A stretch of DNA of 53,822 bases from Sulfuritalea hydrogenivorans sk43H (lineage in GTDB: Bacteria > Pseudomonadota > Gammaproteobacteria > Burkholderiales > Rhodocyclaceae). A program made the translations under genes and the position numbers. Position 1 is the first letter of the stretch. The number at the start of each line of letters is the position of its first letter. Shown piece by piece: positions 9,067-25,451 of this stretch. The stretch is taken from contig CAMBRI010000003.1 in assembly GCA_945870205.1 (NCBI GenBank), positions 1-53,822 of the forward strand, in the 5' to 3' direction. The notes beneath the pieces were generated by a model. It worked only from the letters and a program-made list of their open reading frames with translations. It had not been told where the DNA came from and made no database searches.

Positions 9067-9095
9067 GACGGCGAGTTTAGCTGATCCGCTATAAT
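9065..9095 (+). promoter_or_regulatory. Possible sigma-70 promoter for fabI
   Basis: A perfect TATAAT (9090-9095) lies 31 bases before the fabI ATG. A partial -35 (ATGACG, 9065-9070) is 19 bases upstream. AAGGA precedes the start codon. Confidence 0.45.
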
Positions 9096-9125
9096 CCGCC
9101 GCTGGGTTCAACCAAGGAAAAAGCG

Positions 9126-9926: not shown

Positions 9927-9950
9927 CCAAACCGGTTGCCGCCCCAAACC

Positions 9951-9971
9951 GTGCGCGCCTCCGGCGCGCAC
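9951..9971. terminator. GC-rich hairpin after fabI
   Basis: GTGCGCGC (9951-9958) and GCGCGCAC (9964-9971) form a perfect 8-bp stem with a CTCCG loop, just before the main terminator. Confidence 0.45.
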
Positions 9972-9977
9972 ATAAGG

Positions 9978-10004
9978 AAAAAGCCCCGCGTTGCGGGGCC
10001 TTTT
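9978..10004. terminator. Bidirectional Rho-independent terminator between fabI and ppiD
   Basis: GCCCCGC (9983-9989) and GCGGGGC (9993-9999) form a 7-bp stem with a GTT loop. It is preceded by five A residues and followed by CTTTT, so it works on both strands for these convergent genes. Confidence 0.85.
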
Positions 10005-10022
10005 CGTTGGAACGGCGGGCGG

Positions 10023-11924
10023 TCAACGCTCCTTGCTCTCCAGCAGCACCTTGTTGATCTCGACCGGATACTTTTCCTTCAAGGTACTCATCCAGGCAGC
10101 AAACTCTTCCTCGGACACGAAGCGGGCATATTGCTGGGCCAATGCGCGGCTGCGCGGATCATCCTTGGCGATCTCAGCGGCCTTGACTGAACTGACGCGA
10201 TACAGCGCATAACCGTTTCCGGGAAAGGCCACCCCCGTGTGCGCCGGAAGCTTGCCCGCATCCACCTTGAACACCGCACGCAGGGCATCCGGGGAAAGGC
10301 CTTGCGCCGCGGTGCGACTTACGCTGCGTGCCGGCGACCATTTGAGGTCTAGCGCTTCGCCTTTTTCCAGACGCACCAACTTTGCCTCGCCATCCTTCGT
10401 TGCCAGAATGACGGCTTCATCGCGAATCAGGCGCTTCTCGATGTCTGCCTTGACTGCATCCAGGGGCTGCAATGCCGCGGGCTTATGCTCCAGAACGCGG
10501 GCCGAAACCAGGGTTCCCGGCGCGACTTCGACGGCTTCCGAGTTGCGCTTGTTCTTCAGGCCGTCGTCGCTGAACAAGGCAGCGGCCAGCTTTGGGTTGT
10601 CAAACGGTGGGGGCAACTTGCCGCCCTTGGCCAGCCAGGGGGTCTGGCGCGTTTCCAGCTTCCATTTTTCGGCAGCCGGCTTCAGGCTGTCTGCCTGCTC
10701 GTACACGATGTTGCCAAATGCCTCGGCTGCCTCGGAATACTTCTTGATGCCGCTTTCCCGTTTGAGTTCAGCCTGAATCTCGACTTTAACTTCCTCGAGT
10801 GGCTTGATACGTTCGGGCCGCACGCCCGTCACACGAATGATGTGGAAGCCGAAATCAGAGCGCACGACCTCCGAGATCTGCGCTTCCTTGAGCCCAAACG
10901 CGACGTCCTCGAAAGCTTTCACCATCGCGCCGCGAGCGAACCAGTCCAGATCCCCGCCCTTCTCGGCGGAGCCCGGGTCCTGCGAGTTCTGCTTGGCGAC
11001 CGTGGCAAAATCACCGGGAGTCTTCTTCACCCGTGCCAGCAATTCATCGGCCTTGGCACGTACCGCCTTGGCTTGCGCCTCCGCTGCGTCCTTGTCCAGG
11101 CGTAGGAGGATATGGCTGGCACGACGTGTCTCGCCCGCCTTGTAGCGATCAGCATGCGAGGTATAGTAGCTCTTGACTTCCTCATCGCTGACAGTGGCCT
11201 GTGCCGTCAACGCATCACGGCTCAATACAAGGAATTCGGCACGTACTTGTTCCGGCACTTCGAACTGCTTGCGATTGGCCTCGTAGAACTTCGACACCGC
11301 GTCGGCGGCGAGTTTCACCTGGCCGGCATAGCTTTCCGGCAGAAGTCGCGCTTCGGCAAGCTCGCGTTGTTCCAGTTGCGTTGCGAACCAGCGGGCAGCG
11401 GCTGCCTGCCCCGTGATGCCGGCTTCGGTGACCGGCAACATCAGTTGCTGCATGGCCATGTCCTGGCGCAGGCGCGCCTCGAACATCTCCTTGCTCATGT
11501 TCTGCGCCGCGACCAGCGCCTCGTAGCGCTCCTTGGAAAACTTGCCGTTCTCCTGCAGCGAGGGGACGCCGGCAATGAACTGCACCAGTTGCTCGTTGCC
11601 GACCACCAGACGGGATTTCTTTGCCTGCTCGGCCAGCAGGCGTTGTGTCACCAGCGAGTCAAGTACCGCGCGACGCATTTGCGGCGTTTCGAACATGGCC
11701 GGATCGACTTTGCCGCCCAGTTGCGTACGCAAGCGGTCCTGCTGTTCACGCAGCGCGGACTGCAATTCCTGACGGGAGATCTTGGCGTCACCCACGGTCG
11801 CGACAGCGGCTCCGACATCGGCGTTGCGCACGTAGGAATCGACACCCCAGAAGGCAAACGGAAGCGTGATCAGGGCGAGGAAGCCCTGGGTGATTTTCTT
11901 GTTGTTGCGGACGAAATCGAGCAT
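10023..11924 (-). CDS. ppiD: Periplasmic folding chaperone PpiD (SurA-N/parvulin-type PPIase)
   Basis: The 633-residue protein starts MLDFVRNNKKITQGFLALI, with a single transmembrane anchor at about residues 12-27. A SurA-like chaperone domain follows. The parvulin domain lies at about 265-365 (RRASHILLRLDKD, FATVAKQNSQDPGSAEKGGDLDWFARG, VRSDFGFHIIRVTGV). It assists outer-membrane and periplasmic protein folding from the inner-membrane face. In the reconstructed ancestor it lay directly downstream of tRNA-Val; the island now separates them, leaving only about 57 bases of original upstream DNA. Confidence 0.94.
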   Translation of the reverse strand: MLDFVRNNKKITQGFLALITLPFAFWGVDSYVRNADVGAAVATVGDAKISRQELQSALREQQDRLRTQLGGKVDPAMFETPQMRRAVLDSLVTQRLLAEQAKKSRLVVGNEQLVQFIAGVPSLQENGKFSKERYEALVAAQNMSKEMFEARLRQDMAMQQLMLPVTEAGITGQAAAARWFATQLEQRELAEARLLPESYAGQVKLAADAVSKFYEANRKQFEVPEQVRAEFLVLSRDALTAQATVSDEEVKSYYTSHADRYKAGETRRASHILLRLDKDAAEAQAKAVRAKADELLARVKKTPGDFATVAKQNSQDPGSAEKGGDLDWFARGAMVKAFEDVAFGLKEAQISEVVRSDFGFHIIRVTGVRPERIKPLEEVKVEIQAELKRESGIKKYSEAAEAFGNIVYEQADSLKPAAEKWKLETRQTPWLAKGGKLPPPFDNPKLAAALFSDDGLKNKRNSEAVEVAPGTLVSARVLEHKPAALQPLDAVKADIEKRLIRDEAVILATKDGEAKLVRLEKGEALDLKWSPARSVSRTAAQGLSPDALRAVFKVDAGKLPAHTGVAFPGNGYALYRVSSVKAAEIAKDDPRSRALAQQYARFVSEEEFAAWMSTLKEKYPVEINKVLLESKER

Positions 11925-11947
11925 GCGCTGAATACCCTAGATGCGAC

Positions 11948-11971
11948 AAAGGCGAACCCTTGTTCGCCTTT
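11948..11971 (-). terminator. Hairpin, likely the original tRNA-Val terminator
   Basis: AAAGGCGAAC (11948-11957) and GTTCGCCTTT (11962-11971) form a perfect 10-bp stem with a 4-base loop, immediately outside the far attachment site. Before insertion it would have lain just beyond the tRNA-Val 3' end. Confidence 0.6.
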
Positions 11972-11981
11972 GTTCGGTGGT

Positions 11982-12001
11982 GGTGCTGACGGGGTCGAAC
12001 C
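11982..12001. repeat. Attachment site, far end of the island (duplicated tRNA-Val 3' segment)
   Basis: GGTGCTGACGGGGTCGAACC is identical to 25512-25531, the T-arm and acceptor part of tRNA-Val read on the opposite strand. No other part of the tRNA is present here, so this is the target duplication left by integration rather than a tRNA gene. Confidence 0.88.
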
Positions 12002-12050
12002 TAGCCGGAAACCCTTGCTACTACTGGCCTGTCCATACAACGTCAACAGC

Positions 12051-12071
12051 TGTACCGTCAAAAATACCGTC
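12051..12071. repeat. Integrase arm-type repeats, far end
   Basis: TGTACCGTCA (12051-12060) and ATACCGTC (12064-12071) match the TATACCGTCA repeats beside the integrase at the other end. Likely binding sites for the integrase arm domain. Confidence 0.6.
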
Positions 12072-12163
12072 GGCGAAGATCGGCTACCTTTGTCAATGCG
12101 TCAATTATAGCAGTGAGGGGCTATCGTTTTCGGGCGGATGCTTGCTATTGCGTAGCCATCTTT

Positions 12164-12185
12164 CGCCGTGTCGCCAGCGCCGACT
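12164..12185 (+). repeat. 22-bp direct repeat, copy 1
   Basis: Identical to 13033-13054 (begins CGCCGTGTCGCC, ends GCGCCGACT). The two copies are 869 bases apart and bracket the degenerate repeat region. Confidence 0.8.
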
Positions 12186-12332
12186 TTCCCAGCCATCTGA
12201 CCACCGGCAACGCCGGCCAGCGAGCGCGCCCTCTGGCGCGGAAGCGAACCACACCACCCACGCGCAGCGCCAGAAGAACCCAACGCCGCGAAGCAAGCCG
12301 GTATAGCCTTTGCCCGGGCTGGGGCGCAAGAC

Positions 12333-12433
12333 ATAACCGACCATTACCCGAACCCGCAGGGCGCGAGAGCGGCAGGCTGGGGAGGGAGCGAAGCGGAAGG
12401 GGCCACGGCCTACTTTGGGTAATGCGCGGTTAT
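12333..12433. repeat. Imperfect inverted repeat bracketing a purine-rich loop
   Basis: The arm at 12333-12352 (ATAACCGACCATTACCCGAA) pairs with 12414-12433 with three mismatches over 20 bases, enclosing about 61 bases of G-rich sequence. It could fold into a long stem-loop or represent terminal repeats of a small inserted element. Confidence 0.65.
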
Positions 12434-12622
12434 GTTCAATCGCGCAGCGATTTACCTCTGCCCGGCGGCGTGACAATCGCGCAGAGCGCGCTGGCTGGGT
12501 TCATCGGGTTTGACTTTGCTGACTTGACACACATGGGCATCGCAGCCGTCCGCTTCACCGCTGGTAAGCAGCGGCGGGCCACGAAGTGCGGAACGACGAG
12601 CGGCATCCCGGCGTAGCCGCCG

Positions 12623-13010
12623 AAGCCGTGGGCTGCCTTATCGCCGACGGCGCAGGCTGCGGGCAGTACGCGAGACAGTTGATGCAGTGTGAAAGTCGGC
12701 GCTGGCGAGACGGCGATAGTAGGAGAGGCAAAGCCGTGACGCAGCTTTACCGCGTGACGGCGTGGTGCAGGATGTGATGAGGTAGCCGCCTGCAAGCCGC
12801 AAGCTGGCGAGCGGTCTTATGCTGGCCAGCGCAGTGGCGCAGCGGCGGCGGGGCAGGAGCAGCAGCGGTGAGCGAAGACACTAAGCCGTGACGCAGCTTT
12901 ATCGCGTGACGGCGGGCGTCCAGTACGTGACGCGGTAGCGATGGCGCGGGGCTTGCGGGTTCTTTGCAAGCGCCGTGACTGAGCGGGTGACGGGTGCATC
13001 AGTGCTCGCA
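12623..13010 (+). repeat. Degenerate direct repeats (AAGCCGTGACGCAGCTTTA family)
   Basis: The 32-base segment at 12731-12762 recurs at 12883-12914 with a single C/T difference, and similarity continues for about 25 bases further. A more diverged copy begins near 12624 (AAGCCGTGGGCTGCCTTATC) and a weak fourth near 12969. Spacing is uneven (about 106 and 152 bases), which argues against a simple tandem array. Confidence 0.7.
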
Positions 13011-13032
13011 TCGGGTCAGGCTTGCGGCAACG

Positions 13033-13054
13033 CGCCGTGTCGCCAGCGCCGACT
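13033..13054 (+). repeat. 22-bp direct repeat, copy 2
   Basis: Exact second copy of 12164-12185. Similarity stops at the next base, so the copies mark the edges of the repeat-rich block. Confidence 0.8.
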
Positions 13055-13214
13055 ATCTGGAATGTGAGGACTGGGGGAGGACGAATCACTTTCGCATATC
13101 CGGAAAATACGCCCTACTCGCAAGCGGAGTATTATTTCGCCACCATGTCTCACCCACGATCTATCTGCCCCCCCCTGATCCTGTCGGTTTTACTGTCACA
13201 CTTCAAGTACTCAC

Positions 13215-13487
13215 ATGATCATTACGTACATCGGAATTTACTGTTTAGTTGGCTTACTGGTACTCGCATTGCGCGCGTGGTTGGCACACCGCCGGCCGAC
13301 GTTTTGGGATACCGCAGAGAAAATGGACAAATGTGCCGAACGTGGTGTCGACGAATACATGTATCCCGACGGCGTGCCGTTTCGTCTGCTTGCGGCAAGA
13401 CGTATCGCCACAGGACTGGCGATGATTGTCGGCATTCTCGGATGGCCCGCTGTTGTTGTTGCGCTCATCAGCCGTCAACTGGGCTAA
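13215..13487 (+). CDS. Small membrane protein, unknown function
   Basis: The 90-residue protein has an N-terminal transmembrane segment (about 3-22, IITYIGIYCLVGLLVLALRA) and a second at about 68-87 (GLAMIVGILGWPAVVVALIS). A polar loop of about 45 residues between them contains PTFWDTAEKMDKCAERG and PDGVPFRLLAARR. No family is recognised. It overlaps the next open frame by 46 bases, suggesting coupled translation. No strong ribosome site is visible, so the exact start is uncertain. Confidence 0.6.
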   Translation: MIITYIGIYCLVGLLVLALRAWLAHRRPTFWDTAEKMDKCAERGVDEYMYPDGVPFRLLAARRIATGLAMIVGILGWPAVVVALISRQLG

Positions 13488-13774
13488 GCCCCGTCTCGAT
13501 CAACCTCGGCCGTGAAGTTGCCACCTTTCCTGCCTTCGATGATCCGGACGAGGTCGGGGCAGTGATCTACGCCATCAATCAATCGCGCATCAAACATGGC
13601 CTGCCGCCGCATCAATGGGACTTCGCTGATTTGTTGGCGCTGGGCGTGCCGCGAGACATTGCGGGAGCATTATCGCCGCAAGAACTGCCGAAGTTGCACA
13701 CCGAAAAGGGATCGATTTCAAACTGGGACGAAGTTCGGCAACTGACTGTCACTGAAATTTTTGAAGATTTGTGA
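13442..13774 (+). CDS. Hypothetical soluble protein overlapping the small membrane gene
   Basis: The frame from the ATG at 13442 encodes about 110 residues. The first 16 (MARCCCCAHQPSTGLS) overlap the preceding gene and look non-native. The rest reads like a real globular protein: INLGREVATFPAFDDPDEVG, AVIYAINQSRIKHGLPPHQW, DFADLLALGVPRDIAGALS. No known family is recognised. The true start may lie downstream, or a frameshift may have joined it to the previous gene. It ends 23 bases before the first secreted mosaic gene on the same strand and is probably cotranscribed with it. Confidence 0.5.
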   Translation: MARCCCCAHQPSTGLSPVSINLGREVATFPAFDDPDEVGAVIYAINQSRIKHGLPPHQWDFADLLALGVPRDIAGALSPQELPKLHTEKGSISNWDEVRQLTVTEIFEDL

Positions 13775-13797
13775 ACTGCATTGGCTAGGAGCCGCAA

Positions 13798-15087
13798 ATG
13801 ATCATATCCAGTGTGGTATCTGCTGCATGTCGGTTTATCCGGTCGCTGGCAATCTTGTTTTTGCTAGCGCCCCAGACTGTGTTTGCGGACTTCTGCTCGG
13901 TCGATAATTTTGGAAACGTCACGTCGTGTTTCCCGAGTGCGGACATGTGCCAGCAGTGGGCGCGGACTTCGCAGGGGCATTGTGTGTTTAGGCAAAGTGG
14001 TGGCACCCCTGCGGGTGGCGGTGCCCCGCAGGGGGGTGACTGGCTTGGTAACCTCAACCAGACACTTGGCGGGATTGCAGAACGACAGCGGGCGGCCATC
14101 AAAGATGCAAAGGCAAACACCCCAGACTATCTCTTACCTCTATCAACTCCAAGCCAACCTACCTCGCGTGAAACCATCGCTATTATCGAATCGACGCTAA
14201 AGACAGCGCTGGAAATGGAACCCGGGCAAGCCTTAAAGGAGTGGGCAAACCCCGCGAAGGGGTCGAAGGGAATAGTGGGGGTTGAAGTTGTCAAGCAAAA
14301 CCAGTTTGGCGATGCCTGCCGCGAATTCATTATCTCTCTCGACTACAGTTCGGAGCGGCGAGGTCTCAAGGGAAACGCTTGCCGCAATGGCGGAGCTTGG
14401 CGAATTCTCGGTTCAGTGCCGCTTGAGTTTCGTGATGGGAAGATCGTACAAGACGAACCAGCACCCAGTGCTAGCCGGAATAAGACTCCCATTCCTACAC
14501 GGCTACCAAGAAGTGCGGAATGCCTTAATAATATTAACTGTCAAAGCCACAATTGCTATTCTGGACGTTGTGCTGCTGGCGCAGGGTCAATTGTGACTGG
14601 CGAGCAGTGCGTACTTGACATAGAGTGCGCCGGATCGTCGAATTATTGTCATGAAGGTCGTTGCCGAGAGAGCACCCAATCTCAACAAAAAACCGCCGCA
14701 ACGAAGCCAAGGGGAGCAGGCTGCTCCGAGAATTCTGAATGCGAAAGCACGAATTGCATTAAACAACGTTGTGCTGCCTATGTCTCACTCGGGGCTGGTG
14801 AGCAGTGCGTAGGCAACATAGAGTGCTCCGGCACGCTGGTTTGTCGTGAAGGGCGTTGTGGAGAAGGAACGCCACAACAAGCTACTGCGCCGAAGCCACG
14901 GGGAGTAGGCTGCTCCAATAATTCTGACTGTGTTAACAAGAATTGCTATTCGGGGCGTTGTGTTGCTGCCTCTGCGTCACTTCTGGATGGCCAGGAGTGC
15001 AAATTTGACTTGGAGTGTTCCGGCACGTTGCTTTGTCTTAAAGGGCATTGCGGAGAGAGAACCCCAACTGTCGTTGAGCCCAAGTGA
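13798..15087 (+). CDS. Secreted cysteine-rich mosaic protein A (surface-antigen-like domain plus six cysteine modules)
   Basis: The 429-residue protein starts at an ATG after TAGGAG. Domains in order: signal peptide cleaved after A30 (VFA-DF); a four-cysteine module with C33, C44, C51 and C62 containing FCSVDNFGNVTSCFPSADMC; a surface-antigen-like domain at about 160-225 (QFGDACREF, LDYSSERRGLKGNACRNGG, WRILGSVPLEFRDGKIV), resembling the 17-kDa antigen/RT0821 type. The C-terminal half contains six modules of pattern C-x5-C-x4to6-C-x4-C (for example CSNNSDCVNKNCYSGRC), arranged as three pairs separated by KPRG linkers. It is probably exported and disulfide-bonded. Two paralogs (16722, 18110) share everything except the C-terminal domain choice. 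Function unknown. Confidence 0.8.
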   Translation: MIISSVVSAACRFIRSLAILFLLAPQTVFADFCSVDNFGNVTSCFPSADMCQQWARTSQGHCVFRQSGGTPAGGGAPQGGDWLGNLNQTLGGIAERQRAAIKDAKANTPDYLLPLSTPSQPTSRETIAIIESTLKTALEMEPGQALKEWANPAKGSKGIVGVEVVKQNQFGDACREFIISLDYSSERRGLKGNACRNGGAWRILGSVPLEFRDGKIVQDEPAPSASRNKTPIPTRLPRSAECLNNINCQSHNCYSGRCAAGAGSIVTGEQCVLDIECAGSSNYCHEGRCRESTQSQQKTAATKPRGAGCSENSECESTNCIKQRCAAYVSLGAGEQCVGNIECSGTLVCREGRCGEGTPQQATAPKPRGVGCSNNSDCVNKNCYSGRCVAASASLLDGQECKFDLECSGTLLCLKGHCGERTPTVVEPK

Positions 15088-15151
15088 AGATGTGACTAAC
15101 CAACAGGCTGAGCCTGTCTAAATTTTGTGTGTGTGAGGCGGCTAACGTTCC

Positions 15152-15475
15152 TCATCGCGCCTTGGCGATTCGCTTTGCGGCGTTGCGCACACGGGCAAGC
15201 TCATCGGCGGAATAATGGGCCACTTCACACAGCAGCGCAGCCAGTTCGTCGGATCGGCAATAGAAGAACTCAACAGGAACGTTAAGCGCTTGGGCCAATA
15301 GCTCAGCCGTCTCAAATGGTGGCAGATGGGCGCCGGTCTCATAACGGCTGATTCTCGCGCTACTGCATCCTTCGTCGATGCCGATCATCACCCCAAGGCG
15401 ATCTTGCGGGATTCCAGCCGCCTCCCTCGCCAGGCGAAGACGAAGACCAAAGACGGTTTGAGGATGCTTTCGCAT
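15152..15475 (-). CDS. XRE-family helix-turn-helix regulator
   Basis: The 107-residue protein has an N-terminal HTH_3 domain: LRLRLAREAAGIPQDRLG, the recognition segment SSARISRYETGAHLP, and ELLAQALNVPVEFFYC. A helical tail ends RVRNAAKRIAKAR. It is divergent from the zinc-ribbon gene at 15560. A 15-bp palindrome between them (15510-15524) is the likely operator for autoregulation and control of the neighbour. Confidence 0.88.
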   Translation of the reverse strand: MRKHPQTVFGLRLRLAREAAGIPQDRLGVMIGIDEGCSSARISRYETGAHLPPFETAELLAQALNVPVEFFYCRSDELAALLCEVAHYSADELARVRNAAKRIAKAR

Positions 15476-15509
15476 CCTGCGATATTCGTAGTAAGGACTT
15501 GTCTAGTCT

Positions 15510-15524
15510 CTACGTAATACGTAG
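15510..15524. promoter_or_regulatory. Palindromic operator candidate between the XRE gene and the zinc-ribbon gene
   Basis: CTACGTAATACGTAG is a perfect inverted repeat with one central base. It lies 35 bases from each divergent start codon, the place expected for binding by the XRE protein. Confidence 0.65.
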
Positions 15525-15559
15525 CATGTACATTTCTGGGTAAGACATGGAGATGGAAA

Positions 15560-16090
15560 ATGGGGTTCTTTTCCACCGTTGGAAGTATGCTAAAAGCCAA
15601 TTCGCGAGCTGTTAAAGTGCGGTTGGTTCTTGAAGAATATTTCAGGCTCGCCGCGAACAAGGGAAGCCCAGTTTACGAAATTACTTTGGATTTAGCAGTG
15701 GGTGCGGAAGGTACAAACCATAATGAGTACGACATAGCATTGATGGTGCTGAATATGTACTCGATGCAGCTTGATTGCAAAGATCGAGATGTAAGGCAAA
15801 TGATCGCATACTGGCTTGGCGCTGGCGAAACCCTAATTGAGAAGAAGCTGGTAAGCGATCCGAACAATGCTCAGGGCGCCTTGTCAATGATGGCCGATCA
15901 AATTGATTTTGGCGAACATTTGACTCGTATAGCCGACAAACCGAACAAGGCGGAAAAAATAACAAGCATTGTTCGCCAAGCGAAAAGTTGCAGTTCTGCA
16001 CAATGTCCAAAGTGCGCGGCGGAATTTAATCCGGAACAATTTCATGCATGCCCGGTGTGCGGCTATCACGAAGCATCGTCAAAGCCATGA
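15560..16090 (+). CDS. Hypothetical protein with C-terminal zinc ribbon
   Basis: The 176-residue product starts at an ATG with GGAG about 7 bases upstream. The N-terminal 140 residues are helical and lack a recognised family. The C-terminus has two CxxC knuckles (CPKCAAEFNPEQFHACPVCGY), a zinc-ribbon signature. The coding sequence is richer in A and T than the flanking chromosomal genes, consistent with acquired DNA. It is divergent from the XRE regulator across a palindrome and may be its target. Confidence 0.7.
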   Translation: MGFFSTVGSMLKANSRAVKVRLVLEEYFRLAANKGSPVYEITLDLAVGAEGTNHNEYDIALMVLNMYSMQLDCKDRDVRQMIAYWLGAGETLIEKKLVSDPNNAQGALSMMADQIDFGEHLTRIADKPNKAEKITSIVRQAKSCSSAQCPKCAAEFNPEQFHACPVCGYHEASSKP

Positions 16091-16175
16091 CGTTAGCCCC
16101 GACAGCTTGCACTGATTCACGGCTGCCTGAACCATTTCGCAATATTTTTCATCGGGGCCGGAGTGGCTGGCGTCC

Positions 16176-16631
16176 ATGCCACTTCCCTTGATGACGAATG
16201 TTTTGTCTCAGCCCGCAAGCCTCCAAGTGCGACTTGGTCTGGACATCGACGGAACCATTACCTCCGATCCGCCCCGCTTCGCTGCCTTGGCGCAGCGTGT
16301 CGTCAATTCCGGTGGTGCGGTTCATATCGTGACCTCGCGTACCCAGCTCGCGCACCAGAAATCCATAGAAGAAATCCGTGGTTACGGGCTGCCGTTCGTT
16401 TCGCTGCACTGCCTGCCGTCCTTCGACGTTATGCAGGGCCGCTGTCCCCACGGCGAACTTGACGAATTTATGCGCTATCTGTGGGGCAAGGTCGAAGTGG
16501 CGCTTGAACTTCAGCTGACGCATTTTTCTGATGACGACCCCCGGGTTGAATGGCTATTTGAAGCCTATGCGGCGAGTATCAGATTCCGAACCCCGGCCCA
16601 GATCGAAGACCTGATCAAGTGGGAAGGATGA
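16176..16631 (+). CDS. Small HAD-like hydrolase
   Basis: The 151-residue protein has HAD motif I as LDIDGTIT (nucleophile Asp in DIDGT), a motif II-like VTSRTQ, and a motif IV-like FSDDDPRVEW. A cap domain is absent or minimal. Members are usually phosphatases or related phosphotransferases; the substrate cannot be told. The start may instead be the ATG at 16191. It lies between secreted mosaic genes A and B on the same strand. Confidence 0.7.
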   Translation: MPLPLMTNVLSQPASLQVRLGLDIDGTITSDPPRFAALAQRVVNSGGAVHIVTSRTQLAHQKSIEEIRGYGLPFVSLHCLPSFDVMQGRCPHGELDEFMRYLWGKVEVALELQLTHFSDDDPRVEWLFEAYAASIRFRTPAQIEDLIKWEG

Positions 16632-16721
16632 GAAGAGTTTGCTTTCTGCATAAATAGAATCAAAGGGGCCAGGCTCCCGGCGCTTTGCGTGTAATCTACC
16701 GATCGGGGCATAGGTGAACAT

Positions 16722-17996
16722 ATGAACATCAAGACTGTTATTGCTGCGCTATCGCTGATCGCTGCAAATTCTGCGTTCGCCGATTTCTGTTCAGTCGACA
16801 ACTTCGGCAACGTTACTTCTTGCTTTCCAAGTGCGGACATGTGCCAACAGTGGGCACGGACATCACAGGGTCGATGCGTGTTGCGGCAAGGAGGCTCTCC
16901 GAGCACTGGGAGCGCACCAGCAGGGGGCGGCAGTGACTGGTTGGGGAATCTTACCAACACGCTTGGGGGTGTCGCGGAAAGGCAGAGGGCGGCAATGGCA
17001 GAGGCGGCGCGGAGAACTCCACCGTACATCCTTCTTCTCGCACCCAGCAACTACCCTCACTCGATTGAGACTGTCACCATCATTGACTCAACGTTGAAGA
17101 CTGCGCTCGAAATGGAGGCAGGGCAAGCCGAGAAGACTTGGGAAAATCCTTCGACAAATACCCGAGGGGGGGTTATTGTCAGTCCGGGAAAACCCAATCA
17201 ATTTGGTGAGGTTTGCAAGGAGTTTGCGATAGGCAGCACTAGCCGTGGGGGACCTAAGGGCATCCGGGGAACAGCATGCAGAAAGAGCGGAACGTGGCAT
17301 GTAATAGGGGCTAGCCCGATGAAGATGAGAGATGGAAAGTTTGTGGAGGACAACGAGCCAAGCAGCACCGCGCCCGAAATGGAAAGGCCACAGAATGCTG
17401 AGGTAACCCCGACCCGTCAGACAAATATTTCCCTTGATCATATCAATGTCAATGGCAAGGCATGGACAAGGTGTCTAGTGGGCCAGAAATGGGGGATGCC
17501 AGACCAAGCAATATGTAACGGCTACTGGATCGCAGAGGGCTTTTCGTCAAGATATCAGATCATCAAACAGATACCTGCATCGGACTTGAGTGCCATGAAT
17601 TGGCGCATTCCAACGAGGGACGAACTGCAAGCCTTTTTGAAACTGATGCAAAGCACGGGACGCCTAGCCGAAATTTGGTGGAGCACGTCAAGCTGCGAAT
17701 GGACGAACGAAGAGGTCAACCTTGACAATGGTTATGCGCGATCCGGTCTTCCCAATTTGGTAATCGACGTTCGCGCGCTCAAAAAGGCCGATAGATGCGG
17801 TGTCAGACTAGTATCAGACACCCCAATCCAGAATTCATCAAACGCAACTTTGCGCTGCGACAACGGATCATGCCCCACAGGGTCTTGGTGTGATGACGAA
17901 ACATGTCGCCCATTCTCCCCACCGCCCTCATGCACGAGTGACGCACAATGTAAAAGTGGATATCGTTGCTGGAAAGGGATTTGCAAGTTTTTTTGA
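16722..17996 (+). CDS. Secreted cysteine-rich mosaic protein B (with DUF1566/Lcl-like domain)
   Basis: The 424-residue paralog of protein A has a signal peptide cleaved after A20, the same four-cysteine module (C23 onward), and the surface-antigen-like region (QFGEVCKEFAIG, GIRGTACRKSGTWHVIG). Next comes a different domain at about 240-370: INVNGKAWTRCLVGQKW, NWRIPTRDELQAFLKLM, EIWWSTSSCEWT and CGVRLVSD. This pattern matches DUF1566/Lcl C-terminal domains, which have a C-type-lectin-like fold. Two C-x4to5-C-x5-C-x4-C modules close the protein (CTSDAQCKSGYRCWKGIC). The ATG has AGGTG upstream. Function unknown. Confidence 0.8.
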   Translation: MNIKTVIAALSLIAANSAFADFCSVDNFGNVTSCFPSADMCQQWARTSQGRCVLRQGGSPSTGSAPAGGGSDWLGNLTNTLGGVAERQRAAMAEAARRTPPYILLLAPSNYPHSIETVTIIDSTLKTALEMEAGQAEKTWENPSTNTRGGVIVSPGKPNQFGEVCKEFAIGSTSRGGPKGIRGTACRKSGTWHVIGASPMKMRDGKFVEDNEPSSTAPEMERPQNAEVTPTRQTNISLDHINVNGKAWTRCLVGQKWGMPDQAICNGYWIAEGFSSRYQIIKQIPASDLSAMNWRIPTRDELQAFLKLMQSTGRLAEIWWSTSSCEWTNEEVNLDNGYARSGLPNLVIDVRALKKADRCGVRLVSDTPIQNSSNATLRCDNGSCPTGSWCDDETCRPFSPPPSCTSDAQCKSGYRCWKGICKFF

Positions 17997-18109
17997 AAGC
18001 AGAAATGGTCAGACTCGAATTGAATTCCAGCCGATATGACGATGCTCTGTTTTTCGCGGGAGCCGCGTTTGACGCGCCCAGTTAAGCACCCTACGCATCC
18101 GGAGTGAAC

Positions 18110-19846
18110 ATGCGAAGACTATTTTTTCTGCTGGCTATTCTTCTTGCATCGCCGAGTGCCATGGCGGACTTCTGCTCGGTCGACAACTTCGGCAACATCA
18201 CATCCTGCTTCCCGAGTGCGGACATGTGCCAGCAGTGGGCGAGGACTTCACAGGGGCGTTGCGTGCTGCGATCGAGCGGCGGAGCGCCTTCAGGTGGCAC
18301 AGGCCCAAACTCGGGCAACCCCGACTGGCTGCAAGGTTTGGGAAACATGGCGAGGCAACGCAGTCAAGAATTACAGCAAGGACGTGACGCCACGCCGGGA
18401 TGGATCGCCCCACTTAGCCCAAGCAGCAATTACCTGACGCCGGCGCTTGTAAACAAGCTGACATCACAACTCAACAACATGCTGGAAATGTCGCAAGGGC
18501 GAGACTTTAAGCCTTGGAAATCGTCAAGCGCCAATGGATTCATGTCGGTTGAAGTCGGCGCAAAGAATCAGTTCGGCGATATCTGCCGCGAATTCGTTGT
18601 TACTCTCGACTACAGTTCGGAGCGGAAAGGCATTAAGGGGAACGCTTGTCGTAGTGGTGGAACGTGGCGAATTCTCGGTTCGGTTCCACTTGAGTTTCGT
18701 GATGGGAAGATCGTTGAAACTCAATCAGCCATCGACGGGAGGAATGAATCGAGCAAAAAGAGCCCCGGTGGAGGACAGTGTAAAGAACATCTCAACTGTG
18801 CCAATGGCTTTTGGTGCGATTCAGGAACCTGCGTTCCATATGCCAAAAGTTCTGGTGGTGGGCAGTGTGTAGATCACACCAACTGTGCAAATGGCTTTTG
18901 GTGCGATTCAGGAACATGTGTTTTACATGCCCAAAAGCCGAGTCAGATTGATCGCGAGTCGGAAGATCGGGCGCGCCAAGAAGCCGCAGGGCGGACAAAT
19001 GATGCCGCCGAAATGCGGCCCGGCAAGGTGTTCAAGGACTGCGCCGATTGTCCCGAGATGGTGGTGATTCCCGCCGGCAGCTTCGAGATGGGTTCCCCCG
19101 CCTCGGAAGCGGGTCGAATGGATTCCGAAGGACCGCAACACAGGGTAGTGATTTCGGCCTTTGTGCTCGCCAAGACTGAAATCACCCGTGGTCAGTTCGA
19201 GGTGTTTGCCAAAGACACTGGATATTCAGCCGGTGGTGAGTGCATAGTTTTCGAGAATGGAAAATGGGAAAAGAAGAGAGGCAAGAACTGGCGTGATCCG
19301 GGCTACACGCAGTTGGACAATCATCCGGCTGTCTGTGTCAACTGGGACGACGCCAAGGCTTATGTAAGTTGGCTGGCGCTCAAGACTGGCAAGCCTTACC
19401 GGCTACCCAGCGAGGCGGAATGGGAGTATGCCGCGCGGGCAGGGGCGACGGCAGCGCGGTATTGGGGCGAGAGTCCCGATCAGGTGTGCGGCCATGCCAA
19501 CGTAGCTGACCAGACGATCAAGAGTCAGGTACCCGGCGCCTCTCACAGTTGCACAGACGGTCATGCCTATACGGCACCGGTGGCGAGTTATAAGGCAAAT
19601 GTTTTCGGCTTGCATGACATGATCGGGAATGCGTGGGAGTGGACCGATGACTGCTGGAACAAGACTTACAGCGCCGCACCAAGCGACGGCAGGGCATGGA
19701 CCAGCGGCGACTGCATGCGGCGCATGCGGCGTGGCGGTTCTTGGTTAATGAGTCCGCAGTTGACCCGCTCCGCCTTCCGCTTAAGCAACCTCACGTCGGG
19801 CCGTACCTTCGACAGCGGGTTTCGTCCTGCAAGGTCGCTTCCGTAA
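18110..19846 (+). CDS. Secreted cysteine-rich mosaic protein C (with SUMF1/FGE-like domain)
   Basis: The 578-residue paralog starts at an ATG after GGAG. It has a signal peptide cleaved after A19, the four-cysteine module from C22, and a surface-antigen-like region nearly the same as in A (KGNACRSGGTWRILGSVP). Two cysteine modules lie on an 87-bp tandem repeat. From about residue 300 there is a formylglycine-generating-enzyme-like domain: MVVIPAGSFEMGSP, LAKTEITRGQFEVF, PVCVNWDDAKAYVSWL-type core, YRLPSEAEWEYAARAG, GNAWEWTDD, RRGGSWLMSP and SGFRPAR. The cysteines that true FGE carries after RGGS are absent, so sulfatase activation is unlikely and a ligand-binding role is more plausible. Confidence 0.82.
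   Translation: MRRLFFLLAILLASPSAMADFCSVDNFGNITSCFPSADMCQQWARTSQGRCVLRSSGGAPSGGTGPNSGNPDWLQGLGNMARQRSQELQQGRDATPGWIAPLSPSSNYLTPALVNKLTSQLNNMLEMSQGRDFKPWKSSSANGFMSVEVGAKNQFGDICREFVVTLDYSSERKGIKGNACRSGGTWRILGSVPLEFRDGKIVETQSAIDGRNESSKKSPGGGQCKEHLNCANGFWCDSGTCVPYAKSSGGGQCVDHTNCANGFWCDSGTCVLHAQKPSQIDRESEDRARQEAAGRTNDAAEMRPGKVFKDCADCPEMVVIPAGSFEMGSPASEAGRMDSEGPQHRVVISAFVLAKTEITRGQFEVFAKDTGYSAGGECIVFENGKWEKKRGKNWRDPGYTQLDNHPAVCVNWDDAKAYVSWLALKTGKPYRLPSEAEWEYAARAGATAARYWGESPDQVCGHANVADQTIKSQVPGASHSCTDGHAYTAPVASYKANVFGLHDMIGNAWEWTDDCWNKTYSAAPSDGRAWTSGDCMRRMRRGGSWLMSPQLTRSAFRLSNLTSGRTFDSGFRPARSLP
18767..18940 (+). repeat. 87-bp tandem repeat inside mosaic gene C
   Basis: Two units (18767-18853 and 18854-18940) each encode a GGGQC...NCANGFWCDSGTC module. 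The central 30 bases or so (around TGGCTTTTGGTGCGATTCAG) are identical, indicating recent duplication. Confidence 0.8.
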
Positions 19847-19880
19847 TTCGGTGGAGCGAAGAGAAGGAAGCGACCTTGCA
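19828..19880. repeat. 15-bp perfect inverted repeat across the stop codon of mosaic gene C
   Basis: TGCAAGGTCGCTTCC (19828-19842) and its exact complement (19866-19880) are separated by 23 bases that include the TAA stop. It could be a terminator shared with the convergent gene at 19884, though no T run follows. Confidence 0.8.
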
Positions 19881-19883
19881 TTT

Positions 19884-20198
19884 CTACTCACCCCGTCGCC
19901 ACACCCGTGCCCCACCACCGGCCCGTGAGTAATCTCGGCGCTGGGTGAAGCCAAGTTGCTTCAGCGCGGCGGCAACGCCAGCGGCACTGGGGTGCGCCCT
20001 GAACTCGCCTTGGAGCCTTGGGATCAATTCGGCGGCAGTGAGGTCGCGGCGGCGCTGATTTTCCGTCATGGTGGCGAAGAGCCGTTCAAGCTGCGTAAGC
20101 AGCGGCGTGTAGGTGGTTGCCGAGGGGGGCGACTCTGAACGCTTTTCTGCGTTGGCAGCTTCTGTCATGCGAATCAGTTGGGCGATATAGCCTTTCAT
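19884..20198 (-). CDS. Hypothetical small helical protein
   Basis: The 104-residue protein starts at an ATG with a strong AAGGAG 7 bases upstream. The second half (ELIPRLQGEFRAHPSAAGVA, ALKQLGFTQRRDYSRAGGGA) resembles a winged-helix-like DNA-binding segment ending in a basic tail, but no family is recognised. It lies on the same strand as the primase-like gene, separated from it by the 166-bp palindrome. Confidence 0.65.
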   Translation of the reverse strand: MKGYIAQLIRMTEAANAEKRSESPPSATTYTPLLTQLERLFATMTENQRRRDLTAAELIPRLQGEFRAHPSAAGVAAALKQLGFTQRRDYSRAGGGARVWRRGE

Positions 20199-20265
20199 AA
20201 AATGCTCCTTAGATCACTTGAAAACCAGAAAACCACCGGTGGCGTCTTGGCGAGATTTCGTTTCG

Positions 20266-20431
20266 TCGGTTTTGACAGTGGAGGGGGGTGGCCCTTTTCA
20301 GAAAATTCGAGTGGCGGCAGCAAGTGACGGAAGACGACAGAACTGGATTTATTCTTACGTCAGTTTGTGTCAGCACTTTCCGGCCCTCACAATTTCTCAA
20401 AGGTGCCACCCCTCCCCAGTGCCAAAACCGA
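20266..20431. other. Long imperfect palindrome next to the primase gene, candidate replication origin
   Basis: The left arm, starting TCGGTTTTGACAGTGGAGG (20266-20298), pairs with the right arm ending CAGTGCCAAAACCGA (20399-20431). Pairing continues inward (CTTTTCAGAAAATTCGAGTG against its counterpart around 20383-20398). An inner pair, GACAGAACTG/CAGTTTGTGTC, closes on an AT-rich loop (GATTTATTCTTACGT). The right arm abuts the primase-like gene stop codon. A perfect CCACCGGTGG palindrome lies nearby at 20233-20242. P4-type elements carry their origin near the primase-helicase gene, so an origin is the favoured reading; a terminator or small MITE is possible. Confidence 0.5.
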
Positions 20432-20433
20432 CA

Positions 20434-22773
20434 CTACGCTGCGGCCCGGTAACGGGGGTGGATGAAATAGCGCACTGTCGGGCGGCCTTCGCTGTTGTTC
20501 TGCCGGCCATCTTGCATGGCGCGCAGCCAGCCTAGATCGACCAGCACAGCAACGGCCTCGGCGGCCTCCTTGGTGTTACTCAACAGCGACCAGTTGTGCC
20601 GATACACCTCGCGGACGGTGAACCCGTCCTTCAGGGCACCGCGCTGGATGTGCTTGGAGAGCGCCTTGGCGGAATCCATCGTCGCCGAGGTGACGGCGGC
20701 ATAGGCACGCTTGGCGTGCTCGAACAGAAACCGCTGCCACAGAACCGCCCGCTTCAGCGATTCAATCTGGATATCACCCTGCGCGCCCAGAATCAGATGG
20801 TCGAGCAGCGCCATCGCCGGCACCAGCTTGCGGTACTTGCTGATATGCGACTCCAGTGCGGGATGATGCTCGCTTTGGCGCAACGACTTTTCGAGGTGTT
20901 CCCACCATACGTTAAACAGATGCTGCGCTTCATCGGAAAAGCACATTACGGGAATGCCGTCGACGTCAAACGGAATGCGGGCACCCAAGGCCACGGGGTC
21001 GAGACTTGCCAGCCGGTCGAACACCCGATCCGCAGCCGTCGCCGCGTCCATGTTGGGATGACGGTCAACACGGGTCCAGTCTGACGAGATGTCGGGATAC
21101 ACCAGCAGTTGCAGGCGCTGGGCGAGACCATCGTCGCCCTTGCCGCCATAGACCGCACTGCGGAGATACTCGCGCAACTTGGAAGGCTGCAAGCCGCCAA
21201 GCAGGGAAAAGCACAACCGAGGAATGCGAACAGTGCCGCGCTCGATGCGGTCAAAGGTGTAGCTCTGCTGGCCGTTCCATGCCTCAAGGTAGAACGCACG
21301 AGATGCTTCCTGCCCATCACCATCAAGGCGCACCAGCAAACCGGACAGTTCGTCCTGAAACACCATCAGGCCATGAGGATTGCCGCTTAGCACTTGGCCC
21401 AGCTTCTGATAAGTGGAGTCGTTCAGGAGCAAGCGCGGCGGTTGGGGTTCTTCGGGCTCAACAGGAAACTGCCCCGGAAGAATGGGGAGACCCTTCTTGA
21501 TGTCGGTTTCGATTTTCTTCTTCGCAGCTTCGTACTGCATCCGATCAAGTTCGTGCTGGGTTCGATCTTTACTGAATGCGGCGAGTGCATCGGACTCCAG
21601 TCGCCGCAACGGAGAAAGTACTTGCGCCAAGGCTGGGGACTTCATCACACCGGGGCGCCCCACCACGGCACCCCAGAGGTTGGGCACCTCGACCCAGCCG
21701 GTATCGCGGCGCTTGGGCTGCACGCCGATTCGGTTACCGACCACGGCACCGGCAGCGACCATAGCGCCGACAGCGAGATACTCGACGGGGCATTGCATCC
21801 GGTCCGCGACATCGCCGACCCAGTCCCGAAATACTTGGGGCAGAAGCCGCATATCGAAGGGCGGGACGGGCGGCAGCGTGGCGTTGATCGCCTCGGGCTC
21901 CGGCCAGTCGGTATCGTTGGCGGCGGCAGCTGCGGGGGTGTCGTAGCGGCGGGCGCGGTCGAGCACCGTTTCATCATCGAGCGGCGGGACGATATGGGCT
22001 GCGTTGTAGTCGAGCAGGATGCCGTCGATGGTGGATTGATCCAGCCCCTTGCCGCGCAAATGGCCGGCATAGCGCACCAAGGTTGATTCCCGCCCTTCGC
22101 CATCGCCGACCCGCGCCGGGGGTACGTAGCCGAAGCCGGCAGCCAATGCGGCAGTGACCGACAACGGCGCGGATGCCCGATCAATGAGAAGCGCATCAAC
22201 ATCAACGGCGGCACCATCGAAACCGTATGTCTCGGACGTGGTGACCGGGGTGTAGATCGGCTGCTCGCCCCGATAGACGGATGGATCGAAAACGATGGCA
22301 CCTTCCCCCAGGTCGCCGATCATCATGGCCTGTAATCGTTCGCAGACTGAGATGCACTCCGCTCGACTCATTGGACGAGAGGCGAGGAGGATCGCGCGGG
22401 CGCGTGGTGCTTCCGCCGTCGAACTGGCCGTGGTGTAGGCGAAGCCGCGATAACGTTTCAAGTGTTCCAGCAACGCGGCGAGCTTCTCGACACTGGCGAA
22501 ACCGTCGAAGTCAAACGGGAGAAACGCGCGAGGCTCGACATGATCTTTCAGCCGCCAGTGCGCCACGCCCGGGTACTCGGTCGGCTTCTGGTAATGAGCG
22601 CCTCGCTGCAGCGGCGCACAGATGAACGTCAGGTGCTTCGTCGGGGAACGATCAGCCAAGACGACGTTCTCGAATTCGTCAAACGTGGCGGCATAGTGTT
22701 GCGCGGGCGCGTTGTCGAACTTGTTGCTGCCTCGGGAGTAGTGCAAACCCGTGTCAAGTTTGGTAGTATCCAT
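20434..22773 (-). CDS. Primase-like replication protein with DUF3987 (YfjI-type) domain
   Basis: The 779-residue protein has an N-terminal region that looks like an archaeo-eukaryotic-type primase: AFLPFDFDGF holds a DxD pair (D88, D90) and RARAILLASRPMS follows. A PriCT-like linker lies near 215-275. The DUF3987 region runs from about 305, with a Walker A-like GRPGVMKSP and motifs FQDELSGLL and FSLLGGLQPSKL. Such proteins replicate or maintain integrative elements. The ATG is preceded by AAAGGAA. It heads the minus-strand genetic core that also includes alpA and the integrase. Confidence 0.82.
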   Translation of the reverse strand: MDTTKLDTGLHYSRGSNKFDNAPAQHYAATFDEFENVVLADRSPTKHLTFICAPLQRGAHYQKPTEYPGVAHWRLKDHVEPRAFLPFDFDGFASVEKLAALLEHLKRYRGFAYTTASSTAEAPRARAILLASRPMSRAECISVCERLQAMMIGDLGEGAIVFDPSVYRGEQPIYTPVTTSETYGFDGAAVDVDALLIDRASAPLSVTAALAAGFGYVPPARVGDGEGRESTLVRYAGHLRGKGLDQSTIDGILLDYNAAHIVPPLDDETVLDRARRYDTPAAAAANDTDWPEPEAINATLPPVPPFDMRLLPQVFRDWVGDVADRMQCPVEYLAVGAMVAAGAVVGNRIGVQPKRRDTGWVEVPNLWGAVVGRPGVMKSPALAQVLSPLRRLESDALAAFSKDRTQHELDRMQYEAAKKKIETDIKKGLPILPGQFPVEPEEPQPPRLLLNDSTYQKLGQVLSGNPHGLMVFQDELSGLLVRLDGDGQEASRAFYLEAWNGQQSYTFDRIERGTVRIPRLCFSLLGGLQPSKLREYLRSAVYGGKGDDGLAQRLQLLVYPDISSDWTRVDRHPNMDAATAADRVFDRLASLDPVALGARIPFDVDGIPVMCFSDEAQHLFNVWWEHLEKSLRQSEHHPALESHISKYRKLVPAMALLDHLILGAQGDIQIESLKRAVLWQRFLFEHAKRAYAAVTSATMDSAKALSKHIQRGALKDGFTVREVYRHNWSLLSNTKEAAEAVAVLVDLGWLRAMQDGRQNNSEGRPTVRYFIHPRYRAAA

Positions 22774-22789
22774 TTTACAAGTTCCTTTC

Positions 22790-22820
22790 GCCCGCGCTCA
22801 AACGCGGGCTTTTGTTTTTT
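22790..22820 (+). terminator. Hairpin with T run on the plus strand
   Basis: GCCCGCG (22790-22796) and CGCGGGC (22803-22809) form a 7-bp stem followed by TTTTGTTTTTT. It overlaps the 3' end of the minus-strand gene at 22798 but has terminator polarity on the plus strand, where it would stop antisense transcripts. Confidence 0.5.
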
Positions 22821-23295
22821 GGAGTTCAGTGGCGAGGATTGCGGCCAGGCAACATTCGCGGACATCGGTATGAATGGCGTCCGATTGCAGCGCGCCGTAC
22901 CAAAATTCCTGTACCGGGATGCCAGGGGCAAACGCCACAACAACCCTTGTGCCACCTTTCAGCGCCCAGCCAATCTCGACCAACGTGCCATAGCAGTCGG
23001 GTGCAGTGATGTAGGCGAGGAGCAGATCGGCGGCATCAAGCGCGGTGTTATTGTTTGCGATAACGTCGCGTTGTGTAACTTCAGGCCCGCATTCGTCGCC
23101 AACTGCGCCATGCAAATTGGGACCGTGCCGGCAGCCGTGATCGCAGGAAACGAAGAACGGCCCGACGTAGCTGAAAGCATCGGTTTGGATCGGTCCATCT
23201 GCCCATAGGTGGCCGCGTAGATCAGGCACAAGATGATGTCGCCAATCGTTCTTACCGATCTTGCCGGCGAGGTAAAGATTCGGGTGGTTCATCAT
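22798..23295 (-). CDS. Nucleoside 2-deoxyribosyltransferase-like protein
   Basis: The 165-residue product opens NLYLAGKIGKNDWR, the usual first strand of the nucleoside 2-deoxyribosyltransferase fold. Later it has ALDAADLLLAYITAPDCYGT followed by LVEIGWALKGG, where the Glu fits the catalytic residue of the family. Relatives exchange or hydrolyse the base of (deoxy)nucleosides or nucleotides. The start overlaps the alpA stop (ATGATGA) after GAGAGGTGG. A role in nucleotide metabolism of the element or in phage defence is speculative. Confidence 0.7.
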   Translation of the reverse strand: MMNHPNLYLAGKIGKNDWRHHLVPDLRGHLWADGPIQTDAFSYVGPFFVSCDHGCRHGPNLHGAVGDECGPEVTQRDVIANNNTALDAADLLLAYITAPDCYGTLVEIGWALKGGTRVVVAFAPGIPVQEFWYGALQSDAIHTDVRECCLAAILATELQKTKARV

Positions 23296-23558
23296 TCCAC
23301 CTCTCCACTTGGGACTTTTACCGATGTATTGCGGTGACCATGAAGCATCGCAACCAGCGAACGAATTTCGTCCTCAGTCTTACCCGCGATGCGGGCTGCG
23401 TTCAAGGCCTCTACTTCACTATCTGGCCACCCGACTGCCCGTGCGCCGATCTTCACTGGGCGGGTGAATAGTCCATTTTGGATATCTAGATAATGGGCGC
23501 TGCGTGAGCGTCCGCGCTTCATTGTGACGCTGCGGACTCGAAGAATGGTATTCGCCAT
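23292..23558 (-). CDS. alpA: AlpA-family phage/island regulator
   Basis: The 88-residue protein starting MANTILRVRSVTMKRGRSRS matches the AlpA winged-HTH family, with GLFTRPVKIGARAVGWPDSEVEA as the characteristic second half. AlpA in P4-like elements activates the integrase gene and controls excision. Start 23558 is preferred because AGAGG lies 7 bases before it; an upstream ATG at 23642 would add 28 unrelated residues. Its stop overlaps the deoxyribosyltransferase-like start. Confidence 0.88.
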   Translation of the reverse strand: MANTILRVRSVTMKRGRSRSAHYLDIQNGLFTRPVKIGARAVGWPDSEVEALNAARIAGKTEDEIRSLVAMLHGHRNTSVKVPSGEVE

Positions 23559-23638
23559 GTTTGTACCTCTTGGGCTAGTAATGAACATGGCGATTTTCTT
23601 GTGATGCCGCTTCGATGTCGAAGGATTGAAATCTGATT

Positions 23639-24058
23639 TCAATCCTCCTCTCTGTCCTCCCCCGGGATAACAAATTCAACCTGACGAAATTCTGGGTTTT
23701 TGTTCCAATAGGTTCGCAGCGTTTCTTCGGTCAGACCAAAAGGCTTGCCACGGTGTTCGCCTATCGTGCCGACAGCCTGCTCAAGAGTAAGACCTAGCCC
23801 CCCCGCCTCTAAGGGAAGTCTCGCTGCTGCAATCCACCCCATTGCCAAACGCCTTTTGAAGTCCTTATTTCTTGCCGCCAGCCCCTTTCGCTCCCCTTTC
23901 CCTGCTCTCACATCCAGAGCACTGTTAGCGTCCTCACCGGCCGCGATCGAATTCAAAGCGTCGGTAAGAAATGTTCTATCGGTCGGTCGCAGCCCTTTGC
24001 CCGCACCAATAGCGCGAGCGATCCGACTCAACCTGTTTTGTGCGTCACGAATATTCAC
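23639..24058 (-). CDS. Hypothetical island protein with possible HTH
   Basis: The protein has about 139 residues from the GTG at 24058 (GGAG 8 bases upstream), or 142 from the GTG at 24067. A basic centre (DVRAGKGERKGLAARNKDFK) precedes a segment that could form a helix-turn-helix (LTLEQAVGTIGEHR, FGLTEETLRTYWNKN). No named family is recognised. It sits between the integrase and alpA genes on the same strand. Confidence 0.65.
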   Translation of the reverse strand: MNIRDAQNRLSRIARAIGAGKGLRPTDRTFLTDALNSIAAGEDANSALDVRAGKGERKGLAARNKDFKRRLAMGWIAAARLPLEAGGLGLTLEQAVGTIGEHRGKPFGLTEETLRTYWNKNPEFRQVEFVIPGEDREED

Positions 24059-24085
24059 TTGGATCACTCCGGATGCATAACAGCA

Positions 24086-25300: not shown

Positions 25301-25352
25301 GGTGCCCCCTGTCGGTTGCTGAGTCGGCTGACGTGGCGGTTATTTCAGAAGG

Positions 25353-25431
25353 TATACCGTCAACCATTCCGTATACCGTCAGCTATACCGTCAAAAATGA
25401 CGGTATTTCATGGAATCAGTTTAGACGGTAT
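25353..25431. repeat. Integrase arm-type repeats, integrase end
   Basis: TATACCGTCA occurs at 25353, 25372 and 25384, with inverted forms TGACGGTAT at 25398 and GACGGTAT at 25424. The same motif occurs at the far end of the island. The copies overlap the expected integrase promoter, so integrase binding may also autoregulate it. Confidence 0.75.
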
Positions 25432-25451
25432 CGGACGACTGCGCAAATGAA

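Follow-up and report, generated by a model that had tools for sequence, protein, structure and literature searches.

A PICMI-like element at tRNA-Val in Sulfuritalea carries three predicted exported mosaic proteins with a common four-cysteine module

PICMI phage satellites, described from Vibrionaceae, follow a common gene order: in the part of the description consulted, the integrase gene (int) is accompanied by a gene that mostly overlaps or adjoins it, by alpA, often by one further gene and by a primase gene (prim); the interval from prim to fis holds defence systems, and fis is an optional marker in one model and a mandatory one in another (PMC10803314). P4-like satellites likewise bring together an integrase, AlpA, a primase and a variable cargo hotspot (PMC8628076, PMC9122126, both in excerpt). 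The accessory genes stressed in the portions of this literature at hand are defence systems (restriction-modification, retrons, PARIS) and some virulence-like genes. Here we analyse a window of 53,822 nucleotides (the whole stretch under study; contig CAMBRI010000003.1 of assembly GCA_945870205.1, Sulfuritalea hydrogenivorans sk43H), in which a 13.5-kb element at tRNA-Val carries three genes, A, B and C. These genes, together with a fourth family member, D, on a second element of the same genome, are mobile-element cargo. We tentatively read A–C as satellite-type cargo encoding exported envelope proteins that would combine a conserved assembly module with binding heads open to exchange and that might hold back competing phages or mediate contact; we regard this reading as possible rather than probable.

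The three genes lie on one strand and are organized as follows (positions in the window).

13798-15087, plus strand: gene A, 429 aa, with signal, four-cysteine segment, beta-domain and six cysteine modules
13894-13983, plus strand: four-cysteine segment of A, residues 33-62
14224-14406, plus strand: 17kDa_Anti_2 match of A (Pfam)
14521-15051, plus strand: six C-x5-C modules of A (pattern count)
16722-17996, plus strand: gene B, 424 aa
16788-16877, plus strand: four-cysteine segment of B, residues 23-52
17115-17309, plus strand: 17kDa_Anti_2 match of B, under the cut-off
17454-17714, plus strand: weak Lcl_C (DUF1566) match of B (Pfam)
17856-17984, plus strand: two cysteine modules of B (pattern count)
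18104-19846, plus strand: gene C, 580 aa, GTG start
18173-18262, plus strand: four-cysteine segment of C, residues 24-53
18500-18673, plus strand: 17kDa_Anti_2 match of C, under the cut-off
18779-18919, plus strand: two cysteine modules of C (pattern count)
19049-19834, plus strand: FGE/PvdO-like head of C, in which the FGE catalytic cysteines are absent

A reading of the letters alone (hereafter the sequence-only reading) had proposed three same-strand genes that each join a signal peptide to a near-invariant four-cysteine segment, and our analysis bears this out. Each protein opens with a hydrophobic export signal, whose likely cleavage site, as read from the sequence, is A|DFC, and A–D all show the spacing C-x10-C-x6-C-x10-C without deviation. 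The six, two and two modules of the form C-x5-C-x4to6-C-x4-C ascribed to A, B and C were also recovered, with two more in D and with x4 in place of x5 in the first module of B; shuffled sequences averaged 0.58 modules for A, 0.04 for B and 0.03 for both C and D, and the observed number was reached in 0 of 2000 shuffles for each protein. A 60-nt repeat at spacings of 198 and 192 nt (14574-15023) shows that the six modules of A are three tandem pairs. Because the cysteines of A–C are abundant and paired, a disulfide-stabilised fold is probable. The domain described as surface-antigen-like corresponds to PF16998 (17kDa_Anti_2), for which A scores 28.2 bits, above the curated cut-off of 26.6, but B (23.2) and C (15.1) fall below it. 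Promoter- and terminator-like sites did not exceed the shuffled level.

The four-cysteine segment appears to be maintained as protein. A and B are identical at 33 of 35 residues, yet their codons differ at 20 of the 33 identical residues, which makes recent gene conversion an unlikely sole cause of the near identity for this pair; C and D share 35 of 35 residues with 8 codon differences, and for them a recent common origin is an equally good explanation. Of 36 positions, 22 are the same in all five sequences compared. Downstream of the segment, pairwise relations change along the protein: from the linker to the beta-domain, identity rises from 36% to 72% between A and C (Fisher p 2.6e-5) and falls from 64% to 41% between A and B (p 0.0055) and from 77% to 48% between B and D (p 0.00056), where the segment borders and these three of the six pairs among A–D were picked after the table was known. 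This pattern fits domain exchange. The claim of a shared front half (four-cysteine segment, linker and beta-domain; here the N-module) with differing heads and mosaic relations was therefore upheld, and D, on a second island with another tail, extends it.

The closest described relatives of the N-module are the RT0821/Lpp0805 proteins (PF16998), with which it shares the C-terminal beta-domain and, in it, the motifs W-x-NP, C-[RK]-[EQ]-F and CR. Among 40 relatives from our family, order and class samples (one of which, L009, is probably spurious), 37 have a glycine-zipper-like stretch and, by inspection, terminate in the beta-domain, and none has the four-cysteine segment or the cysteine modules. 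The segment itself gave no credible Pfam match. Kinship to DUF3551 (PF12071), a lead suggested by the cysteine spacing, gained no support: the A segment had no PF12071 match up to E 10, a whole-genome PF12071 search matched nowhere, control genomes included, and a plasmid search for this lead was empty. The N-module profile found nothing credible among solved structures (best E 0.024). Its predicted structure (mean pLDDT 71.2, pTM 0.59) renders the four-cysteine part as strand-strand-helix-strand, followed by a low-confidence linker, helices and a five- to six-stranded sheet. A Foldseek search with this model returned 593 matches up to E 10, several of the weak ones NTF2-like and none at E 0.001 or below, which yields no close known fold and no kinship by fold. 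So far, the front half has been seen in Sulfuritalea only, built on a widespread beta-domain.

The C-terminal parts differ among family members: A has no added domain, B a weakly Lcl-like one, C an FGE/PvdO-like head, and D two cysteine modules and, beyond them, about 100 C-terminal residues to which Pfam assigns no domain. The absence of an added domain in A and the FGE-like domain in C are as proposed, the latter clearly (PF03781, 221.3 bits against a cut-off of 23.3), but the Lcl-like assignment of B is weak. The head of C aligns from end to end with the FGE/PvdO family; its best match among solved structures is PvdO (E 4e-57), human FGE is weaker (about 3e-26), and the NCBIfam PvdO model gives 244 bits against a cut-off of 500. 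C has no cysteine after residue 537, and the stretch aligned to the FGE active-site cysteines (the pair after the RGGS motif, which we take to be the catalytic ones) contains none. The head also matches the Treponema denticola variable protein 2y3c (E 6.5e-06), so that C shares the FGE-type lectin fold with variable proteins of diversity-generating retroelements. However, no reverse transcriptase was found in the Sulfuritalea genome (0 matches at 85% completeness; the control search was positive in 3 of 14 genomes), and the heads vary by whole domain and do not differ by point changes. It is therefore unlikely that a retroelement diversifies the heads, and the proposal of a dedicated recognition system gained no support, with no reverse transcriptase and no PADLOC match for A–D. 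The suggested lectin-type fold is well supported, by sequence, only for the head of C; the tail of B gave no usable model. Profile searches of the B and D tails against solved structures found nothing credible, and neither tail had plasmid matches.

The element that carries these genes is defined by 20-bp direct repeats of the tRNA-Val end, which together with the integrase substantiate the claim that the genes are island-borne and newly define the borders. Its principal features are as follows.

11982-25531, no strand: whole element, 13.5 kb, with a 20-bp direct repeat of the tRNA-Val end at each border
11982-12001, no strand: 20-bp attachment (att) repeat, integrase-distal
20434-22773, minus strand: DUF3987 primase-helicase (Pfam)
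22798-23295, minus strand: 165-aa open reading frame (ORF) with a sub-threshold nucleoside deoxyribosyltransferase-like match
23292-23642, minus strand: AlpA (PF05930), 38.2 bits against a cut-off of 21
23639-24067, minus strand: 142-aa ORF between integrase and AlpA, without Pfam match
24086-25300, minus strand: tyrosine integrase (Pfam, NCBIfam)
25512-25531, no strand: att repeat, integrase side, inside tRNA-Val (25507-25582, minus strand)

Integrase (PF00589), AlpA and a primase of the DUF3987 or DUF5906 type, the genes by which PICMIs are recognized, are thus all present, the primase being DUF3987 here, and they occur in the PICMI order: integrase, a gene beside it, AlpA (overlapping both neighbouring ORFs by 4 nt in a mechanical ORF listing), one gene, primase and a far-end accessory slot (compare the consulted part of PMC10803314). 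A–C occupy that slot, between the primase and the integrase-distal end. In contrast to PICMIs, however, the island lies at tRNA-Val rather than at fis, in a betaproteobacterial host, carries exported mosaic cargo and is at most a candidate for mobilisation by a phage. Because the order agrees and the slot corresponds, but site and host differ, we consider the element PICMI-like without classing it as a PICMI. As for P4-like satellites, none of their capsid-hijack genes psu, sid and delta was noticed among the island ORFs, although the corresponding models were not run one by one. The GC content is 0.52-0.56 over 13501-19500 versus 0.59-0.63 over 1-12000, and the island is flanked by a PpiD-like gene (under the NCBIfam cut-off) and lon.

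The ORFs that flank the cargo slot, one of about 90 aa left of A and one of 104 aa right of C, are each present in three copies in the genome, and the additional copies mark two sibling elements. Element 2 (contig C11) is bounded by a 60-nt repeat of a tRNA-Arg end (90% identical), and element 3 (contig C31) by an exact 48-bp repeat that by eye resembles a tRNA-Thr end, with no whole tRNA detected there by ARAGORN; both have an integrase and a DUF5906 primase. The cargo of element 2 consists of a 284-aa zinc-ribbon protein and D, the fourth family copy, with its different tail. That of element 3 comprises a 236-aa ORF, a helix-turn-helix (HTH) gene, a 109-aa exported cysteine protein, a PEGA protein and a protein in which trypsin is joined to tetratricopeptide repeats (TPR). 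Exported cargo is therefore present in both siblings, in one of them with the four-cysteine family. All three elements also share, at the integrase-distal end, a repeat-rich region R (window 12164-13161; locus L005 257-1423; locus L065 2976-3627). Short units of R resembling repetitive extragenic palindromic (REP) sequences occur in 31 of 31 genomes of the genus, and long copies are few; four of six further loci, the congener loci L088, L089, L092 and L093, have a long copy at a distance of 80-206 bp from a tRNA end, and two of the six (L089 and L090) contain further elements with integrase and AlpA whose cargo reads as exported.

These data point to A–C as cargo of a satellite-type tRNA-Val element with the PICMI core order, placed in the slot where PICMIs hold accessory and anti-phage genes. 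We propose that the four-cysteine and beta-domain half would be a module for assembly of the proteins in the envelope or for their retention there, that the exchangeable tails would be binding heads, and that the element would spread a surface trait with its host, presumably with some benefit. That reading draws on several lines of evidence: the four-cysteine segment is kept as protein despite codon differences while heads differ and domain relations change; att repeats and integrase accompany AlpA and DUF3987 in PICMI order; the slot-flanking ORFs occur three times in the genome and the siblings carry exported cargo; proteins called exported by a crude rule are more frequent in cargo than in background or core (counts below); and lectin folds of the FGE and Lcl types have a described or proposed role in binding ligands (PMC5006420, PMC11162425). 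In the excerpts of these sources, FGE-type lectin folds bind ligands in general and may have enzyme activity as well (PMC5006420), and carbohydrate recognition or trimer formation is suggested for the DUF1566 region of Lcl (PMC11162425); the heads studied here may bind ligands. The trait would most likely limit competing phages at the envelope or alter cell contact. Because the slot sits on a PICMI-like core, an envelope-level effect on phages is our leading guess, with adhesion next. A broader version, in which satellites of this genus keep an outer-shell slot for exported swappable-head mosaics that supplement or replace intracellular defence and act on competing phages at the surface, blocking or sensing them before DNA enters, we consider rather improbable. 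A slot of exported proteins, among them one family that pairs a module with a head, would widen the satellite repertoire and would offer, in an environmental genus, a few surface proteins that lend themselves to testing; we found no description of this layout in the open-licence literature (titles and abstract openings). Our data suggest that small satellite-like mobile elements can change parts of the bacterial surface.

Several observations weigh against this reading. We found no lipobox or membrane anchor after the signal peptides, so the proteins might be released instead of retained. The N-module is rare, occurring in 2 of 31 genomes of the genus (this one included), and the copy in the second genome, E, is not on a recognised island, with no integrase recognised within 20 kb (ORFs by eye) and no tRNA (ARAGORN). 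Element 3 lacks the four-cysteine family, two candidate ORFs of elements 2 and 3 gave no Pfam match to AlpA, and PADLOC models returned 0 families for each of A, B, C and D. The Lcl_C match of B (PF07603) reaches 17.9 bits for the whole protein and 19.4 for the tail alone, both under the cut-off of 34.9, and the predicted structure of B has a mean pLDDT of 47.4, mostly 21-40 in the tail. Proteins called exported by a crude signal-peptide rule of our own number 9 of 18 in cargo, 12 of 61 in nearby background (p 0.016) and 1 of 20 in the core (an HTH protein, surely a false call), but this set is biased, as elements 1 (the tRNA-Val element) and 2 were found via exported proteins and L089, L090 and the cargo ORFs were hand-picked. 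For element 3, which was found via the flanking ORFs, 3 of 5 cargo proteins were called exported. Taken as a whole, the sequence-only reading is thus supported in part.

Alternatively, A–C could be adhesins or matrix proteins that attach to surfaces, polysaccharide or adjacent cells within biofilms, and the island would simply carry a niche trait that has nothing to do with phages. The heads are of a binding type, and Lcl is, in the part of the source consulted, a secreted, surface-found adhesin whose lectin-like, DUF1566-containing region recognises glycosaminoglycans (PMC11162425); given the weak Lcl match of B and the correspondence of the slot to the PICMI defence slot, we judge this unlikely, if a serious candidate. 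The rarity of the family and its absence from element 3 would also suit neutral hitchhiking, with duplicated genes and shuffled domains on a mobile element in decay and no function under selection, but the open frames are full length and the four-cysteine segment is conserved as protein through many synonymous changes, which makes this quite improbable.

Two further explanations concern what the proteins might do at or beneath the surface. The PvdO match of C would agree with a periplasmic enzyme or metal-ligand role in which the family handles small ligands, since PvdO is periplasmic and required for the final oxidation of pyoverdine (PMC6206403, in excerpt). Against it stand the NCBIfam score, less than the cut-off, and the restriction of the PvdO-like head to C, and no siderophore genes turned up beside C, although no search was aimed at them; we think such a role very unlikely. 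We give similarly little credence to contact-dependent competition, in which A–C, spread by the element, would confer immunity to the toxins of neighbours or predators or act as competition factors against them: exchangeable, island-borne heads on exported, cysteine-rich proteins agree with it, but nothing is specifically in its favour, A–D have no Pfam toxin domain, and no effector gene was recognised adjacent to them.

The distribution of the family bears out little of the expectation that many island-borne tandem copies would exist. Four copies, A–D, are present in the Sulfuritalea genome (4.44 Mb, 391 contigs, 85% complete); the second positive genome, the Sulfuritalea metagenome-assembled genome (MAG) G256, has the headless 220-aa copy E, the only find of our genome-contig scans; and A–C are the sole tandem cluster seen, with no recurrent clusters found. 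In wider samples, which were drawn, overlap and count the Sulfuritalea genome each time, matches occurred in 5 of 297 genomes of the family, 10 of 399 of the order, 54 of 369 of the class and 56 of 398 of the phylum, where a divergent copy could be missed because only the best 8 or 10 first-look candidates per genome were scored. Outside the two positive genomes, no listed match spans any of the four cysteines; the matches cover the beta-domain, some with part of the linker. Plasmids yielded only two weak beta-domain matches, the N-module family was not found in viral contigs and phages, and queries with the flanking ORFs and primase had no match in viral contigs. The head of C, by itself, matched 15 phage records at less than 60% identity, and Microcystis phages account for 8 of these.

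The remaining features of the element are listed below; with those above, they include all island ORFs longer than 100 aa that were scanned. Apart from the tRNA, no known RNA family passed its cut-off in the island.

12164-13161, no strand: repeat-rich region R, common to three elements of the genome, at the same end
13490-13774, plus strand: ORF of about 90 aa left of A (open frame 13022-13774), conserved in three elements
15152-15475, minus strand: HTH gene in the cargo slot, in a stretch 92% nucleotide-identical in element 3
15560-16090, plus strand: 176-aa ORF with sub-threshold zinc-ribbon-like matches only
16176-16631, plus strand: 151-aa ORF without Pfam match
19884-20198, minus strand: 104-aa ORF right of C, conserved in three elements

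Some observations on the related loci stand apart from the family. In element 3, the exported trypsin-like protease fused to TPR (L065 7053-8273) adjoins the PEGA and 109-aa cysteine-repeat proteins and matches PADLOC RT-Protease models via its protease part. Two integrase-like genes of the same locus (L065 1371-2675 and 13151-14572) each directly precede a copy of the 48-bp repeat (2816 and 14742), suggesting a tandem array of elements at this site. In the congener locus L088 (9694-17959), a tRNA-Thr is followed by R, a kinase-like gene and, by eye, apparent type I restriction-modification genes. Finally, two small exported proteins without Pfam matches, one in the cargo of a congener element (L089 11330-11911) and one near E (L014 10951-11613), have by eye a similar start, Y-[ED]-D-C-[IV]-L.

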